DNA of 34,276 bases from Parcubacteria group bacterium (lineage in GTDB: Bacteria > Patescibacteriota > Minisyncoccia > Phycocordibacterales > 21-14-all-47-15), in contig JACOYO010000003.1 of NCBI GenBank assembly GCA_016181845.1, positions 80,185 through 114,460 on the forward strand. Direction: 5' to 3'. The notes under the pieces were generated by a model. It saw only the letters and a list, made by a program, of their open reading frames with translations. It did no database searches and was not told the DNA's origin. Every line of letters starts with the position of its first letter. Position 1 is the stretch's first letter. Both the position numbers and the translations under genes were made by a program. This document shows positions 11,229 to 33,374 of this stretch, piece by piece.

Positions 11229-11376
11229 CGGGCCCACGAGGATTCTTTCCTTACAGGAACAGTACAGTTTTCGCATCGTGCTCGCTTCGCTCCGCGCGAT
11301 ATGCTCAAACTTTTCGAATCCTCACGCAAGCCAAATTGTTGGCTTGCTGTGGGCACTTCGTTCGCTTCGCTCTCTA
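11229..11376 (-). repeat. tRNA-tail-associated structured element, type A (tRNA-Trp locus)
   Basis: Lies 3' of tRNA-Trp. Direct repeat cgggcccacgaggattc at 11229-11245 and 11377-11393; reverse-complement T-arm copy at 11313-11323; hairpin GCAAGCC/GGCTTGC 11326-11347; TTCC-TGTAA-GGAA hairpin (minus strand) at 11247-11259. Confidence 0.85.
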
Positions 11377-11447
11377 CGGGCCCACGAGGATTCGAACCTC
11401 GGTCAACGGTTTTGGAGACCGCTATTCTACCACTGAACTATAGGCCC
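11377..11447 (-). tRNA. tRNA-Trp (anticodon CCA)
   Basis: Minus: GGGCCTATAGTTCAGTGGTAGAATAGCGGTCTCCAAAACCGTTGACCGAGGTTCGAATCCTCGTGGGCCCG; cloverleaf pairs by eye. Confidence 0.94.
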
Positions 11448-12781: not shown

Positions 12782-12974
12782 GGCTTCCTCGCCTCCTTTT
12801 TTTGATTTTTTCTTTTGCTATTTTACCATATTTAATTTATAAAGTAAAGATTTTATCATTCCAGCAAAGGCAGGGCCTTTGTTTCTCTTTGGCATATTTG
12901 CTCTGTTGTTGATTAAAAGGTATAGTATACTAGCGTTTTTGTGCGCGTTAGCTAACCTTACCAAAGAATACATT

Positions 12975-13058
12975 GCGTCGGTGGCGGAGTGGTCAATCGC
13001 AGCAGACTGTAAATCTGCCGGCCTTAGGCCTACGCAGGTTCGAATCCTGCCCGGCGCA
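12975..13058 (+). tRNA. tRNA-Tyr (anticodon GTA)
   Basis: GCGTCGG...CCGGCGC acceptor, loop CTGTAAA, long variable arm, GCAGGTTCGAATCCTGC T-arm. Confidence 0.94.
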
Positions 13059-13220
13059 TTCGGAGCGAAGCGGAGAATGAGACGGAGAAAGTCGCCTGCG
13101 CGACTTTCGTGCAGGATTCGAAAAGTTTGAGCATATCGCGCGGAGTCCAGTTCTCAAACCAGACGAGCACGATGCGAAAACTGTACCGTTCCTGTAAGGA
13201 AAGAATCCTGCCCGGCGCAT
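13059..13220 (+). repeat. tRNA-tail-associated structured element, type A (tRNA-Tyr locus)
   Basis: Direct repeat gaatcctgcccggcgcat at 13042-13059 and 13203-13220; hairpin GAAAGTCGC/GCGACTTTC 13087-13108; inverted T-arm gcaggattcgaa 13111-13122; conserved AAGTTTGAGCATATCGCGCGGAG and GATGCGAAAACTGTACCG-TTCC-TGTAA-GGAA to 13201. Confidence 0.87.
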
Positions 13221-13496: not shown

Positions 13497-13877
13497 ATGT
13501 TTCCATATTATAAATTTTTATTCCAACGAGCAAACTACCCAGAAAATTGGGACGGATTAAGAAAAGCGGTTTATCGTCGTGATAGATGGCAATGTCAAAA
13601 ATGTGGTATTAAAAATACTCAACTTCACGCGCACCATCAAACTCCATTGTCTATTGGCGGCTCAAACGATACGAGCAATCTCATTACTCTTTGCAAAAAT
13701 TGCCATATTGATTCCCACCCACACATGTGGCTAAAACGATGGAAAGAAAGCAATCCTCAAGCTGTGCTTGCGCTTCGTATTGTTACTCTTTCCACAGTAA
13801 TTTCATTACTCATAATATTTGGTTTTAGTTGGTGGAAAATTATAGCTTTAATTATTATATTCCAGTATTTATTCTGA
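13497..13877 (+). CDS. HNH endonuclease with C-terminal TM segment(s)
   Basis: 126 aa; RRDRWQCQKCGIKNTQLHAHHQTPLSIGGSNDTSNLITLCKNCHIDSHPH is a canonical HNH; then VTLSTVISLLIIFGFSWWKIIALIIIFQYLF hydrophobic tail. Confidence 0.87.
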   Translation: MFPYYKFLFQRANYPENWDGLRKAVYRRDRWQCQKCGIKNTQLHAHHQTPLSIGGSNDTSNLITLCKNCHIDSHPHMWLKRWKESNPQAVLALRIVTLSTVISLLIIFGFSWWKIIALIIIFQYLF

Positions 13878-13920: not shown

Positions 13921-14448
13921 ATGAAAAAATCTGTAAACAACGTCGCGTATATAGACGGAGCAAATCTACACCACGGCATAAAACAGCTTGATTGGAATTT
14001 TGATTACGGTCGTTTCCGCGTATGGCTTCAAGAAAAATATAGCGTCACACAGACATATTTATTTCTCGGGATGGTGCCTAGGTATAAAGACCTTTATACC
14101 CAACTACAGGAATTTGGGTACACCCTTGTTTTCAAAGAAGTAATTTTTGATGGGGAGGGTAAGGCAAAAGGTAATTGTGACGCTGATATTGTTGTATCTG
14201 CGATGCAAAACGCATACGAGAATAGATTTGATAAAGCAATTCTTGTTTCAAGCGACGGAGATTATACTCCGCTTGTAAAGTTTTTAATGAGTAAAAATAA
14301 AATGGCGACTATCATATCGCCATACGAAACAAAAAAATGCTCCGTTTTGTTGAAAAGAACCGGTGTAAAAATTGCTTATATCACTGAACAGCAAACGATT
14401 CTAGAAACCCAAAAAGAAAAAGCCCCCGATGCGGACGAAACCGCATAA
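13921..14448 (+). CDS. NYN-domain (LabA/DUF88-like) PIN-fold protein
   Basis: 175 aa; VAYIDGANLHHGI, KGNCDADIVVSAMQNA, KAILVSSDGDYTPLVKFLMSKNK. Confidence 0.88.
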   Translation: MKKSVNNVAYIDGANLHHGIKQLDWNFDYGRFRVWLQEKYSVTQTYLFLGMVPRYKDLYTQLQEFGYTLVFKEVIFDGEGKAKGNCDADIVVSAMQNAYENRFDKAILVSSDGDYTPLVKFLMSKNKMATIISPYETKKCSVLLKRTGVKIAYITEQQTILETQKEKAPDADETA

Positions 14449-21607: not shown

Positions 21608-21848
21608 TTTTATTATCTTTGAATTACGAAACATTAACCTGTAAATCCAAGCCATCTAATGGTAATAAATGAAACGAAAAACTAAAAATGAAAAAAGCAA
21701 AACAACAACTTAAAATTCAAAATATTTTACACTTTACGATGTTGTTTTACGTTTTTCGATTTGCGTTTTGCATTTTTGTAACTAATCGTTTGTAATTCAT
21801 TATATCATTATACATTACGATATTTTTGAACAATCTCCACAATACACA

Positions 21849-21873
21849 TTGTTGGACATCGGATGTCCAACAA
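21849..21873. repeat. palindrome TTGTTGGACATC-G-GATGTCCAACAA
   Basis: 25-nt near-perfect palindrome just past the stop of the cysteine desulfurase gene; second copy at 22182-22204. Confidence 0.9.
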
Positions 21874-21881
21874 TTTATGCC

Positions 21882-23153
21882 TTATTGTACAGGCCGGGCG
21901 TATTTTTTTAAAATGGCTGAAAGCGTCAATATCGTCTTGTCTATCTCTTTTTTTGTAGTTTCACGTCCCAAACTAAACCGCACCGAATTATCGGCGAGCC
22001 ACTTATGGCCGCCAAGCGCGGAAACCACATACGATGCGTCTTCGTCTTCACTTGAGCACGCGCTTTTTGCCGATACCGCGACGCCTTTTGCATCTAGTAA
22101 AATAACCATAAGCTGGCTTTCTATATTTGGAAAAGAAACATTTATATTATTTGGAAGCCGCGTAACACGTGATCCGTTAACTGTTGGACATCCGATGTCC
22201 AACAATTTTGTGATAAAGTAGTCGCGAAGTTTAGTTTGCCGTGCCGACTCTTTTTCAGCAACTGCGCGAGTTATTTCAATCGCTTTTGCCAAACCAACGA
22301 TAACCGGCACATTTTCCGTTCCGCTTCGCAATCCTTTCTCTTGCCCGCCGCCATAGAGCATCGGCACGAGTGGAACATTACGTTTTTTGTAGAGCACTCC
22401 GACTCCTTTCGGTCCATAGATTTTCGCGCCATTGAATGTGAGCAAATCAACGCCAAGCCGCTCAATATGCGCATCAAGATAATTCATCGCCTGGCACGCG
22501 TCAGTATGAAAATACGGATATCGGTTCAACTTGGACGTCGGGTTTCCAAGTTGACTTGGAAACCCGACGTCCAAGTTAGATTTTTCACTTAGTGGCTCAA
22601 CCACTAAGTGATTCTTTCTATGAAGGCGAATTATTTTTGCGATTTCGCGAATCGGCTGGATTGTTCCGATTTCATTGTTGGCATACATGATTGAAACAAG
22701 CACAGTTTCCGGACGAAACGCTTTTTTCAATTGGGCAAGATTTGCAATGCCTTCTTTATCTACGCCGAGGTAATCCACTTTCGCCTCGCCATTTTTTTCC
22801 AGCGCACGGCAGACATTAAGAACCGATGGGTGCTCAATCACGCTCGTAATGATGTGTGGCTTTTTTATTCCAAGCTCACGCGCCGCGCGAGCCACGCCGA
22901 AAATCGCCAGATTGTTTGCCTCCGTCCCGCCACTGGTAAAAATTATTTCATCTGGGTGTGCGAAAATTGCCCGCGCGATTTTCGCGCGTGAATCTCCTAT
23001 CGCCTTTTTTGCTTCCACACCTTTTTTATAAATCGCCGATGGATTCCCCTGCTCGCGAGAAAAATACGGCTTCATCGCGAGAAACACCCGCTTATCAAGC
23101 GGCGCGCCTCCGGCGTGGTCAAGATATATATTTTTTTTGGAAAACGAGCTCAT
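21882..23153 (-). CDS. cysteine desulfurase (NifS/IscS-like)
   Basis: Start MSSFSKKNIYLDHAGGAPLDKRV; FTSGGTEANNLAI, HTDACQAMNYLD, LTFNGAKIYGPKGVGVLY, GGGQEKGLRSGTENVPVIVGLAKA, KSACSSEDEDASYV. Confidence 0.95.
   Translation of the reverse strand: MSSFSKKNIYLDHAGGAPLDKRVFLAMKPYFSREQGNPSAIYKKGVEAKKAIGDSRAKIARAIFAHPDEIIFTSGGTEANNLAIFGVARAARELGIKKPHIITSVIEHPSVLNVCRALEKNGEAKVDYLGVDKEGIANLAQLKKAFRPETVLVSIMYANNEIGTIQPIREIAKIIRLHRKNHLVVEPLSEKSNLDVGFPSQLGNPTSKLNRYPYFHTDACQAMNYLDAHIERLGVDLLTFNGAKIYGPKGVGVLYKKRNVPLVPMLYGGGQEKGLRSGTENVPVIVGLAKAIEITRAVAEKESARQTKLRDYFITKLLDIGCPTVNGSRVTRLPNNINVSFPNIESQLMVILLDAKGVAVSAKSACSSEDEDASYVVSALGGHKWLADNSVRFSLGRETTKKEIDKTILTLSAILKKYARPVQ
22182..22204. repeat. palindrome TGTTGGACATC-C-GATGTCCAACA inside CDS
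   Basis: Same palindrome as 21849-21873, within the cysteine desulfurase reading frame (LLDIGCPTVNG). Confidence 0.9.
22528..22577. repeat. 50-nt palindrome (24-bp stem, 2-nt centre) inside CDS
   Basis: AACTTGGACGTCGGGTTTCCAAGT-TG-ACTTGGAAACCCGACGTCCAAGTT. Confidence 0.95.
22586..22610. repeat. 10-bp hairpin inside CDS
   Basis: CACTTAGTGG-CTCAA-CCACTAAGTG, adjacent to the 50-nt palindrome. Confidence 0.9.
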
Positions 23154-25221: not shown

Positions 25222-25293
25222 GGCCACGTAGCCAAGTGGTAAGGCATTCCTCTGCAAAAGGAATATTCGGGAGTTCGATTCTCCCCGTGGCCT
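25222..25293 (+). tRNA. tRNA-Cys (anticodon GCA)
   Basis: GGCCACG...CGTGGCC acceptor, U73, loop CTGCAAA. Confidence 0.94.
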
Positions 25294-25453
25294 CAAGGTA
25301 ACGGAGCAAAGCAACTGCTTGCTTTGCGTGGAGAATCGAAAGTCGGAGCGATGCCCCGCTCGCAAGCGGGGCCGCGAGACGGGCTCGCGAAAATTTTTCA
25401 TCAGAAAAATTATTCGTGAGCGATTCTCCCCGTGGCCTCAAGGTAACGGAGCA
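25294..25453 (+). repeat. tRNA-tail-associated structured element, type C (tRNA-Cys locus)
   Basis: 33-bp direct repeat 25276-25308 / 25421-25453; hairpin GCAAAGC/GCTTTGC 25306-25327; inverted T-arm GGAGAATCGAA 25330-25340; CCCCGCTCGCAAGCGGGG hairpin. Confidence 0.86.
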
Positions 25454-25654: not shown

Positions 25655-25727
25655 CCGCCCATAGCTCAGTTGGTAGAGCAACTGCCTCTTAAGCAGAAGG
25701 TCGTAGGTTCGAGCCCTACTGGGCGGA
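25655..25727 (+). tRNA. tRNA-Lys (anticodon CTT)
   Basis: CCGCCCA...TGGGCGG acceptor, loop CTCTTAA, GTAGGTTCGAGCCCTAC T-arm. Confidence 0.94.
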
Positions 25728-25868
25728 CACGGAGCAAAGCGGAGTGTTTGCCCAAGCGAGCAAACAATTTTGCTCGCGTGTAGGGCGAGAAAAGTTTGAG
25801 CATATCCGCCTATGGCGGATGCGAAAACTGTACTGAATCTGTAAGATTCGAGCCCTACTGGGCGGACA
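25728..25868 (+). repeat. tRNA-tail-associated structured element, type A (tRNA-Lys locus, unit 1)
   Basis: 22-bp direct repeat 25708-25729 / 25847-25868; GCGAGCAAACAATTTTGCTCGC hairpin; GTAGGGCGAGAA inverted T-arm; GTTTGAGCATATCCGCC-TAT-GGCGGATGCGAAAACTGTACTG-AATC-TGTAA-GATT. Confidence 0.87.
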
Positions 25869-26055
25869 AGCACGAAGTGATTGGACGGCCAGAGCAAGAC
25901 AACGGCTTGTCTTGCGTTAGGGCTCGAAAGCCGTAGCGATGTTTTTGTTTTGCGGAGCGAAGAAGCGGAGCAAAGGCAAAAACCGCGAGGCGGGGCTGAT
26001 AAAAATTTCCGTTAGGAAATTTATTAGTAGCCGAGCCCTGACTTTGGCGGACAAG
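25869..26055 (+). repeat. tRNA-tail-associated structured element, type C (tRNA-Lys locus, unit 2)
   Basis: Hairpin GCAAGAC/GTCTTGC 25894-25915; inverted T-arm TTAGGGCTCGAA 25917-25928; AAATTTCC-GTTA-GGAAATTT hairpin; diverged tail copy CGAGCCCTGACTTTGGCGGACAAG 26032-26055. Confidence 0.82.
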
Positions 26056-26211
26056 CACGAAGTGATTGGACGGCCAGAGCAAGACAACGGCTTGTCTTGC
26101 GTTAGGTTGAAAAGCGAATACATGGAGCTTTTCAAAACCTTTTGATATAGATTGCGAGTTTACGAGGCAATATATCCAAAAGGTGTACTGTTCCTGTAAG
26201 GAATCGAAAAG
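26045..26211 (+). repeat. tRNA-tail-associated structured element, type B (unit 3, upstream of tRNA-Leu TAG)
   Basis: 62-bp near-identical copy of 25860-25921 at 26045-26106, then GGTTGAAAAGCGAATACATGGAGCTTTTCAAAACCTTTTGA...TCCAAAAGGTGTACTG-TTCC-TGTAA-GGAA-TCGAA. Confidence 0.8.
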
Positions 26212-26233
26212 ATGACTTAATTAAAATTAACAC

Positions 26234-29517: not shown

Positions 29518-30666
29518 ATGTATCCGAAGAAAAAAATTTTATACCTTGTAACAAAATCAAATCAGGGCGGCGCGCAGAGAAATGTGTACGACTTGGCGAC
29601 CGATTTATCGCCAGCAAATTTTGACGTGTTGATATGCGCCGGCGGAGAGGGCTGGCTTTTAGACGAGCTCAACAAAAAAAATATCCGCGCCGAATCACTT
29701 CCCTTTCTTTCGCGTGATATAAATATACTTGCCGACCTGTCGGTCTTTTTCCGCCTCATTGCTCTTTTCAAAAAAGAACGTCCTGATGTCGTGCATCTGC
29801 ACAGCTCAAAAGTGGGCGGACTCGGGGCTTTTGCGGCGCGCGTCTCAGGCGTTCCAAAAATTATTTTCACCGCGCACGGCTGGGCATTCAATGAACCGCG
29901 CTTTTTTCTTTCGCGTGCAATGATATGGCTTGCTTCGTGTGTCACCGCGCTTCTTTCTCACCATCTTATTACCATCACTAAAAAAGATACGGCGCAAGCT
30001 CGAGCGATGCCCTTTGTTTCAAAATCAAAAATTAATTATATACCAAATGGAATCGGTGAAATAAAATTTTTACCTCGTGAAATGTCGCGCGAAACTCTTC
30101 TCTCCTCACTCGCAAAAAACCTGTCGCCAGAAACACTCTGGATTGGCGCTATATCAGAACTGACAAAAAATAAAGGGTTGTCATATGCGATTGACGCAAT
30201 CGCCAATCTTTTACGCCGCAAAGAAGGACCATTCGTAAAATTTGTTTTTGTCATTATCGGCGAAGGAGAAGAAAGAAAAGCGCTTGAAAAACAAATCGCG
30301 GACAATAATCTTTCTAATACGGTCTTTCTTGTCGGACACAAAAAAGATGCACGGATATTGTTAAAGGCATTTGATATATTCACGCTCACCTCACTCAAAG
30401 AGGGTCTGCCGTATGCGCTTCTTGAGGCCGGACTTGCTGGATTGCCAGTCGTCGCAAGCAATGTCGGCGGTATTCCTGATATTATTGACAACAATGCTGG
30501 AATTCTAGTCCCCACAAAAAATCCCGAGGCAATCGCTGAAGCATTACAAAAAATGATACAAGACGCTGGTTTGCGACATCATTGCGGAGCGCATAACGCA
30601 AAGAAAATAAGCAACACACATTCTCTGCGAAATATGCTCAACCAAACCACGGCTCTTTACAAATAA
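29518..30666 (+). CDS. glycosyltransferase family 4 / group 1
   Basis: Start MYPKKKILYLVTKSNQGGAQRNV; FTAHGWAF, YIPNGI, IGEGEERKALEKQI, TSLKEGLPYALLEAGLAGLPVVASNVGGIPDII. Confidence 0.92.
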   Translation: MYPKKKILYLVTKSNQGGAQRNVYDLATDLSPANFDVLICAGGEGWLLDELNKKNIRAESLPFLSRDINILADLSVFFRLIALFKKERPDVVHLHSSKVGGLGAFAARVSGVPKIIFTAHGWAFNEPRFFLSRAMIWLASCVTALLSHHLITITKKDTAQARAMPFVSKSKINYIPNGIGEIKFLPREMSRETLLSSLAKNLSPETLWIGAISELTKNKGLSYAIDAIANLLRRKEGPFVKFVFVIIGEGEERKALEKQIADNNLSNTVFLVGHKKDARILLKAFDIFTLTSLKEGLPYALLEAGLAGLPVVASNVGGIPDIIDNNAGILVPTKNPEAIAEALQKMIQDAGLRHHCGAHNAKKISNTHSLRNMLNQTTALYK

Positions 30667-30699
30667 AGGTTCCTCGGGGCTTTACCACGAGGAACCTTT
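30665..30699. terminator. terminator/palindromic hairpin
   Basis: AAAGGTTCCTCG ... CGAGGAACCTTT, 12-bp stem between convergent genes. Confidence 0.85.
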
Positions 30700-31818: not shown

Positions 31819-31931
31819 ATTCCGGCAATGTCTTTGCCTTTCTTTGAAAAGTAATTTTACCGGTTCTTTTATTTCGTCCGAGCGAAGACGAAACACAGGT
31901 TAATATCTCGTGGCTTTGCCACTAGGAACCT

Positions 31932-32696
31932 TTATATATCAAACACGTTAACCCGCGGCATAATTTCAATTTTTGCGGGTGCTCCATCAAATGCTTTGGG
32001 CCAGGTGAAAAAAACAGATTCTGATGTATCCGGCAAAATACGGTTGACAATGGTTTCACTCGCCGCAAAAACATTCCCGCTATTATCAAACAGGGCGGCC
32101 GTAACTATCACATTCTTTTGTGGAGAAAAAGAACGGTTGAGAATTGCCGCTTCTATAAGCGGATGGCTACCGGCAGTAAATTTCATATTCTGTAAAGCAA
32201 GCGGCGGCTTTTGTTCGGAAGACTGTCCCCACACCGGGTCCGTTTGAAACATAAGAAAAGCACGCGATGGAATGCGTGTCCCCGTGCGTATGCCGCCCGA
32301 AAAGACAATAAAGCGTTCATTTGGATTGATAAATGTTTTTCCAGACCGTTCCGCAACCAATAGATTTTCTTTGTCGTATAATTTGAACGTATAAGCAATT
32401 GCGGGAATCCCAGCATGTACGTTTGGATTTTCTATAAACCCGACTGCATCATACATTCCTTCTCCAGCGGGCAACACACGGCTCCACAAGGTAATGAGCG
32501 GGCGTACGTCCGATATGCAGGCGTTTGGACATACTCCACCGCAGTCAACGCCGGTTTCATTTTGATTTTGTTTGTTGTCGGTACAAGACGGCAGAGGATT
32601 GAGCGCTTTATATAATGAAAAACTACCAAGTAAAAGAAGCCCGCCGAACACGGCGCTTAAATAGAGTAATTGCCTTCTCGCCGACCAAGAAACCAT
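31932..32696 (-). CDS. hypothetical membrane-anchored extracellular protein with Cys motif
   Basis: 254 aa; one N-terminal TM then CTDNKQNQNETGVDCGGVCPNAC, beta-rich remainder. Confidence 0.75.
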   Translation of the reverse strand: MVSWSARRQLLYLSAVFGGLLLLGSFSLYKALNPLPSCTDNKQNQNETGVDCGGVCPNACISDVRPLITLWSRVLPAGEGMYDAVGFIENPNVHAGIPAIAYTFKLYDKENLLVAERSGKTFINPNERFIVFSGGIRTGTRIPSRAFLMFQTDPVWGQSSEQKPPLALQNMKFTAGSHPLIEAAILNRSFSPQKNVIVTAALFDNSGNVFAASETIVNRILPDTSESVFFTWPKAFDGAPAKIEIMPRVNVFDI

Positions 32697-32970: not shown

Positions 32971-33149
32971 TTGATACAGCCGGGGGGTTGAAATGCGAAC
33001 ACTTGGAGCATTTCAAGACCTTTTGAGAATTTTCATGAGTCTTGCGAAATGAAAAGTCCAAAAGGTGTACTGATTCTGTAAGAATTTGAACCCCACCAGT
33101 TCAGCGAAAGTGCCATCGGGCACTTTCTCGTCTGTACAAATACATTTGA
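32971..33149 (-). repeat. tRNA-tail-associated structured element, type B, core inverted relative to the tRNA (5S-tRNA spacer)
   Basis: tRNA tail copy tttgatacagccgg at 32970-32983 and 33144-33157; GGGGTTGAA 32984-32992 / TTGAACCCC 33086-33094 closing stem; ATTC-TGTAA-GAAT 33073-33085; GAAAGTGCC/GGCACTTTC 33106-33127. Confidence 0.8.
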
Positions 33150-33222
33150 TACAGCCGGAGGGATTTGAACCCCCGTCTCCCAATCTTTTGGAAAAGGCGC
33201 TCTGCCATTGAGCTACGGCCGC
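33150..33222 (-). tRNA. tRNA-like gene, anticodon uncertain (CCA/Trp or TCC/Gly alignment), weak anticodon stem
   Basis: Minus: GCGGCCGTAGCTCAATGGCAGAGCGCCTTTTCCAAAAGATTGGGAGACGGGGGTTCAAATCCCTCCGGCTGTA; D-, T- and acceptor arms fold, anticodon stem does not pair well. Confidence 0.65.
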
Positions 33223-33374
33223 ATCATATTTTTTTTCGAAAAGAACAAAAATAATAATTCACCGGCACAATACCTGGTATATGAAACCCGTTACCCCGCG
33301 TTTCATATCCCAAGCCTCGTGCGCGACGAGTTTGGTTTCCAAATTTCCATTTTGTGATTTCCACATTTCCTAAT

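Follow-up and report, generated by a model that had tools for sequence, protein, structure and literature searches.

Why does the end of a tRNA gene reappear, once in antisense and once in sense, around a sequence that also lies behind a different tRNA gene? This question is raised by the tRNA-Tyr locus of a Parcubacteria group bacterium (NCBI GenBank assembly GCA_016181845.1, contig JACOYO010000003.1), which lies within a stretch of 34,276 nucleotides (nt) (positions 80,185 to 114,460), analysed here as a whole and called the window. The original prediction had described a core at this locus (12975-13220, plus strand) nearly identical to one at tRNA-Trp and flanked by a Tyr-specific antisense segment and tail. 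We read all 11 contigs of the 742-kb genome and inspected each tRNA end. The locus probably belongs to a family of short non-coding insertion elements that act at the DNA level at the 3' ends of tRNA and transfer-messenger RNA (tmRNA) genes, in which the core spreads and the flanks (X' and X) take their sequence from the target, perhaps through template switching on a fold-back. This finding is larger than the observation from which it started.

The units follow a general order, comprising the tRNA 3' end (X), a small hairpin or terminator, an acceptor antisense (A'), a hairpin, a T-arm antisense (T'), a core of two hairpins (P1 and P3), and X again (Table 1). At tRNA-Tyr, the final 18 nt of the gene (GAATCCTGCCCGGCGCAT, 13042-13059) have an exact second copy at 13203-13220, and GCAGGATTCGAA (13111-13122) is exactly antisense to TTCGAATCCTGC, the GAA directly after T' being antisense to the invariant TTC. 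The GAGCRAAGCG loop of the Tyr mini-hairpin recurs 3' of other element-bearing tRNAs. The Trp unit has the same plan on the opposite strand, with GCCCAC as A' and GAGGATTC as T'. Pairwise comparison of the Trp and Tyr cores revealed 100% identity over 33 nt and 98% over 46 nt, with different apical loops (CGAAGC in Trp and TCCAGTTCTCAAACCAGAC in Tyr). Both the near-identical core and the Tyr-specific antisense and tail were thus confirmed.

Approximately 20 of the 46 called tRNA/tmRNA genes of this genome bear at least one unit, the elements being gene-free and approximately 110-170 nt long, and remnants in the form of a fold-back without a core were found at other tRNAs, such as Val-GAC and Ser-GCT. 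Four core types were distinguished in the genome: type A (Tyr, Trp, Pro, tmRNA, Lys, and Arg-TCT), type B (Ile-TAT, Gln-TTG, and Arg-CCG), type C (Leu-GAG, in tandem, and Arg-TCG), and type D (Cys, Gly-TCC, Arg-GCG, and the second units at Lys and Gln). R1, a covariance model built from 31 units of types A-C, matched the genome 26 times at E <= 1, with the matches reaching E = 6e-22. At least five of the R1 copies in this genome were not located 3' of a tRNA; those examined closely were also bounded by inverted repeats.

We counted the anatomy of 145 distinct R1 copies from this genome and its order and computed arm statistics on 99 units. A tRNA or tmRNA 3' end was located at most 600 nt upstream of 119 of the 145 copies, mostly at less than 100 nt, and the element shared the strand of that gene in 119 of 119 cases. 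The arms of the 99 units were then compared with their own tRNA and with other tRNAs, the conserved TTCRA being excluded. The downstream 9-nt T-arm copy was perfect for the own tRNA in 57% of cases versus 0.7% for other tRNAs, and the 8-nt acceptor antisense was perfect in 28% versus 0.4%; a perfect 7-nt match was present in 66 of the 99 units for T' and in 63 for the T copy. The direct repeats start immediately 3' of the TTC of the T-loop and are 7-55 nt long, or 155 nt where the whole unit was doubled.

The pairing statistics distinguished a DNA-level structure from an RNA-level one. Among the 964 pair cells of P1 and P3, 915 were Watson-Crick, 9 were G-U, and 13 were A-C, whereas the control tRNA stems of the same loci contained 92 G-U and 11 A-C (Fisher p = 3e-6 against P1 and P3). 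The corresponding G-U and A-C counts were 9 and 2 in the spacer terminators and 8 and 9 in the T'/T stem. On neither strand did the P1, P3, and T'/T stems have the excess of wobble pairs that a selected RNA shows, and this lack of G-U excess suggests that the structure is kept as DNA rather than as RNA. The term antisense in the original prediction hints at RNA, but these statistics point to DNA. The core structure is conserved, with covariation (alignment A1), and the predicted single-stranded DNA (ssDNA) fold is a cloverleaf composed of an acceptor-like stem, a hairpin, a T-arm-like stem, and the two core hairpins (z = -5.9 for Trp and -2.8 for Tyr).

We further analyzed whether the cores follow the tRNA or the genome. 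In genomes with at least three cores, 31 of 68 cores had their nearest neighbour in the same genome (4.5 expected), and 4 of 68 had it beside the same isoacceptor. Because the cores cluster by genome and not by tRNA, this finding suggests that cores move between tRNA genes while the arms fit the host gene. Near-identical cores (95-100%) already bear arms adapted to different tRNAs, and the Pro core has a counterpart of 100% identity elsewhere in the genome, behind a different flank. A recent duplication with target adaptation had been proposed for Trp and Tyr. The adaptation is borne out by fitted arms around cores up to 100% identical, whereas a direct duplication between the two is not supported: the genome has at least 25 copies, of which these are two; the closest match of the Tyr core is the Pro core of this genome, and another genome yielded the best match of the Trp core.

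The genome was also compared with that of a sister species of the same genus, in which Cys, Lys-CTT, Arg-TCT, and Tyr do not have the element found here. At Cys, the sister has tRNA-Leu 9 nt after tRNA-Cys, whereas an insert of 112 nt, with a direct repeat of 33 nt, is present here. In the empty-site comparison suggested with the original prediction, the sister Tyr locus has no core but is not a clean empty site because the downstream flanks are not alignable, and the sister has other core types at Trp (a truncated type B) and at Ile-TAT. At Asn-GTT, the terminator and A' are common to both species and the cores are unlike. Since the sister loci have the element, lack it, or have other cores, cores appear to be gained, lost, and exchanged while the arms stay fitted to the tRNA.

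Relatives with the same core motif were identified in Vogelbacteria, Nomurabacteria, Kaiserbacteria, Zambryskibacteria, Taylorbacteria, and further Parcubacteria/Patescibacteria. R1 was present in 58 of the 98 genomes scanned, which belong almost entirely to other families of this order, at 0-38 copies per genome, and it was restricted to the one order in a phylum-wide sample of 287 genomes. R2, a model of core type D built from 10 units, matched 37 of these 287 genomes, some outside the order and some outside the class; all of the 10 R2 loci that were fetched, five of them from outside the order, lay 3' of a tRNA, on its strand, and with the same plan. In this sample, types A-C are limited to one order and type D is phylum-wide. 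Viral contigs and phage and plasmid collections yielded no element match, and spread by phages or plasmids was rejected on this basis.

Table 1. Features of the tRNA-associated units in the window (positions of the window; X, A', and T' as in the text).
Feature	Position	Strand	Basis
Tyr unit: host gene tRNA-Tyr(GTA), without encoded CCA	12974..13059	+	ARAGORN and Rfam
Tyr unit: X, proximal copy (T-loop after TTC, T-stem and acceptor 3' strands)	13042..13059	+	sequence; 18-nt direct repeat with 13203-13220
Tyr unit: mini-hairpin CATTC-GGAGCGAAGCGGA-GAATG, apex of the fold-back	13057..13079	+	sequence
Tyr unit: A' (acceptor/trailer antisense), mostly decayed in this copy	13075..13085	+	comparison with other units
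Tyr unit: hairpin separating A' from T', GAAAGTCGC-CTGC-GCGACTTTC, perfect	13087..13108	+	DNA fold
Tyr unit: T' = GCAGGATTC, antisense of the tRNA-Tyr T-arm	13111..13119	+	sequence
Tyr unit: type-A core (GAAA; hairpin P1, 13124-13182; GTACCG linker; hairpin P3 with GTA loop, 13189-13201)	13120..13202	+	alignment A1, covariation, model R1
Tyr unit: X, distal copy	13203..13220	+	sequence, direct repeat
Trp unit: host gene tRNA-Trp(CCA); X = 11393-11377	11377..11447	-	
Trp unit: element (A' 11356-11349; hairpin 11347-11326; T' 11323-11316; type-A core; distal X 11245-11229)	11229..11376	-	
tRNA-Cys(GCA) and type-D element; 33-nt direct repeat borders (25276-25308, 25421-25453)	25222..25453	+	
tRNA-Lys(CTT) and type-A element; X at 25711-25729 and 25850-25868	25655..25868	+	
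Array 3' of tRNA-Lys: type-D core (25915-26046) and type-C core (26125-26219), linked by a 61-nt direct repeat	25869..26219	+	
Aberrant tRNA gene between 23S and 5S rRNA; type-C core reversed	32975..33223	-	

Several neighbouring features were recorded. The Tyr element is adjoined on its 3' side by an HNH endonuclease open reading frame (ORF; 13497-13877) and an NYN-domain ORF (13921-14448). The HNH ORF is single-copy in the genome and was rejected as a mobiliser for this reason; a 39-nt stretch resembling its start, with an early stop, is also present at 2655-2693. The tRNA-like gene in the 23S/5S rRNA gap (33148-33223, minus strand) has an aberrant anticodon loop (ARAGORN 'cc'); the sister genome has an orthologue, called as tRNA-Val(TAC), with the element in normal orientation, the core being inverted here. 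Elsewhere in the genome, tRNA-Thr(TGT) (G000:C2:15600-15853, minus strand) is followed by a duplicate of its 3' half that takes in the anticodon arm; the sister genome shows the same arrangement, which is another kind of tRNA end duplication. The tRNA-Asn(GTT) gene (G000:C9:1248-1500, minus strand), which was missed by ARAGORN and has an element 3' of it, is probably interrupted by an inserted sequence, possibly a group I intron. In the whole genome, both strands counted, the octamer GCGAAGCG is present 110 times, versus 12.9 expected by base composition, and it is frequently the apex of the tRNA fold-back. Several of the ends of contigs C1, C2, C3, C4, and C11 fall inside elements; element repeats therefore probably break assemblies of this group.

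None of the six enzyme families tested tracks element copy number. The transposase of repetitive extragenic palindromes (REP), RAYT (Y1_Tnp, PF01797), had no match in G005, G012, and G032, which carry 27, 19, and 25 copies, whereas G048 and G050 had 5 and 4 matches and no element copies. The genome under study has five RAYT-like genes, flanked by hairpins unrelated to the element, and a RAYT/REP origin was rejected because copy numbers are uncorrelated with RAYT and the flanking hairpins differ. REP-like hairpins of the window (21848-21875, 22179-22206, 22528-22577, 30656-30691, and 31907-31942; TGTTGGACATCGGATGTCCAACA, AACTTGGACGTCGGG.., AAAGGTTCCTC..) resemble the flanks of the RAYT genes that this genome carries on other contigs. 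One tyrosine recombinase (PF00589, Xer) is present in this genome and likewise in most others, housekeeping Xer being found in nearly all genomes tested; a dedicated tyrosine integrase was rejected as not consistently present. No reverse transcriptase was found in G000, G005, G012, G023, G026, G040, G067, and G079, and a retroelement (SINE-like, retron, or group II intron) was rejected on the evidence of these eight genomes. A casposon or Cas1-mediated insertion was rejected because 18 element-rich genomes contained no Cas1 homologue, and an IS110 (bridge RNA) element because the transposase was found in 0 of 10 element-rich genomes. Serine recombinases had no consistent presence among the genomes tested, and the genome under study contains no reverse transcriptase, Cas1, IS110, or serine recombinase. 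A miniature inverted-repeat transposable element (MITE) was rejected, since the terminal inverted repeats vary per copy and follow the target and no common transposase was found among the families tested. In this genome, no tRNA end recurs at a distance, and large tRNA-bounded islands are therefore absent.

In the fold-back explanation, a nascent strand, in replication or repair, would copy X' as far as the T-loop and use the T-arm microhomology (GGATTC) to switch to another copy, entering its core, after which it would snap back onto its own X' and copy X. A second switch, at the palindrome of the terminator or mini-hairpin, would lead to X' being copied again, and the outcome would be tRNA-X-hairpin-X'-core-X-flank with no dedicated enzyme needed; alternatively, an enzyme acting on DNA hairpins could yield the same product. 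It is this copying of the arms that we infer. Fold-back switching at the T-loop and the terminator palindrome would explain why tRNA ends with terminators serve as sites. According to three papers, template switching between inverted repeats is established in bacteria and both writes and keeps perfect stems (PMC7202029, PMC8794818, PMC8604942). A wider proposal, which we hold only tentatively, is that the elements may be phylum-wide enzyme-free parasites or by-products, whose DNA cloverleaf core would spread by template switching and rewrite its arms for each tRNA.

Several findings weigh against the fold-back explanation. In 95 of the 99 units, an inner hairpin, in which 793 of the 800 pairs are Watson-Crick, divides A' from T' at the boundary of the T-stem and the acceptor, and its position exactly between the two is unexplained by simple fold-back copying. 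Unpaired motifs (GAAR, GTACYG, and GTA loops) are conserved in the alignment, which suggests recognition by a protein, and enzyme absence was tested for six Pfam families only. The distal acceptor copy is missing in approximately 40% of the units, and the proximal and distal terminators are frequently unlike. Moreover, CCA was kept in the distal X but lost proximally in nine units and the reverse was observed in two, which counts against simple copying because simple copying predicts no such bias. A simple target-site duplication was rejected because the proximal CCA is lost more often, and these counts, suggestive only, may mean that the new end is the proximal copy.

The conserved loops and linkers would also suit a serious rival, although we consider it rather unlikely, in which a non-autonomous element resembling MITEs or REPs is moved by an ssDNA transposase or recombinase recognising the core hairpins, the arms being corrected later by hairpin templating. 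The patchy copy number (0-38 per genome), the T-loop position and strand common to the elements, and the nearly universal housekeeping Xer agree with this rival. Nevertheless, genomes with 19-27 copies lack RAYT and genomes without a copy have it, reverse transcriptase and Cas1 do not track the copies, and neither IS110 nor a consistent serine recombinase was found in the genomes tested; because arms are adapted already at 95-100% identical cores, the correction would need to be very fast. A functional RNA, either tRNA-like or antisense, that controls how the upstream tRNA matures, T'/A' pairing alternatively with the tRNA or with its copy, would account for the strand shared with the tRNA in all 119 cases and for the covarying, cloverleaf-shaped structure. 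We regard it as improbable given the lack of G-U excess on either strand, the intrinsic-terminator-like hairpins located between the tRNA and the element in 47 of 99 spacers, and the variation in presence, type, and copy number between sister genomes. Rfam contained no curated family match, the sole match being a CRISPR-repeat model far below the cut-off. A hammerhead-like ribozyme was rejected by eye because the required core is absent, and an RNA attenuator was weighed and downgraded by the wobble test.

Integrases typically cross over in the T-loop, target tRNA and tmRNA genes, and leave duplicated 3' ends; the units, in nine of which CCA is retained distally against two with the reverse, could accordingly be read as remnants of classical tRNA-targeted integrative elements, of which only the attachment region is left and whose direct repeats are attL and attR, with crossover in the T-loop. 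This reading is highly improbable, since the genome, as most others, has a single tyrosine recombinase (Xer), has no distant tRNA-end copies that would indicate large islands, and contains conserved cores that are common to different tRNAs but have target-specific arms, which is unexpected for degraded islands. Finally, the original prediction named chance similarity through the T-loop palindrome as its own refutation. TTCGAA is indeed a palindrome, but the own-versus-other tRNA comparison, E values down to 6e-22, and the exact 18-nt direct repeat refute this explanation, in which there would be no real element.

If the fold-back explanation is true, some of the smallest known cells would harbour numerous mobile DNA hairpins, each taking up a copy of part of its target, and almost any tRNA family could serve as a host. 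The known modes of DNA element spread would be extended, and the elements could help to explain CCA-less tRNA 3' ends, doubled ends, and repeat-broken assemblies in Patescibacteria, besides offering a dense natural record of how templates are switched where replication meets obstacles.

Our search of open-access papers found no description of such an element. Within the scope of that literature, of the six enzyme families, and of a mechanism that we infer, we call the element categorically new because it departs in a defining feature from every known family with which it was tested. Similar to REP/RAYT (Y1) sequences, it is a multicopy, non-coding, short intergenic palindrome kept as a DNA hairpin without G-U excess; in contrast to them, it is located mostly 3' of tRNA/tmRNA genes, its arms match the target, and its copy number is independent of RAYT. 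It shares its targets, the T-loop boundary, the direct repeat of the 3' end, and tandem arrays with tRNA/tmRNA-targeted integrative elements but differs from them in being approximately 110-170 nt long without genes or integrase, in containing an inverted target copy, and in having similar cores behind many different tRNAs. MITEs are likewise small, non-autonomous, and multicopy with inverted repeats, whereas the inverted repeats here belong to each target and not to the element, and no cognate transposase was found. Integron attC sites resemble the element in their folded DNA, paired arms, and arrays, but the genome has no second tyrosine recombinase and the units have no cassette genes, R/L boxes not having been scanned for. 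Quasipalindrome template-switch products, as described in two papers (PMC8794818, PMC7202029), have the same inverted local copies and perfect stems without wobble intermediates; the element differs from them in having, between its inverted copies, a conserved core that is found again at dozens of loci.
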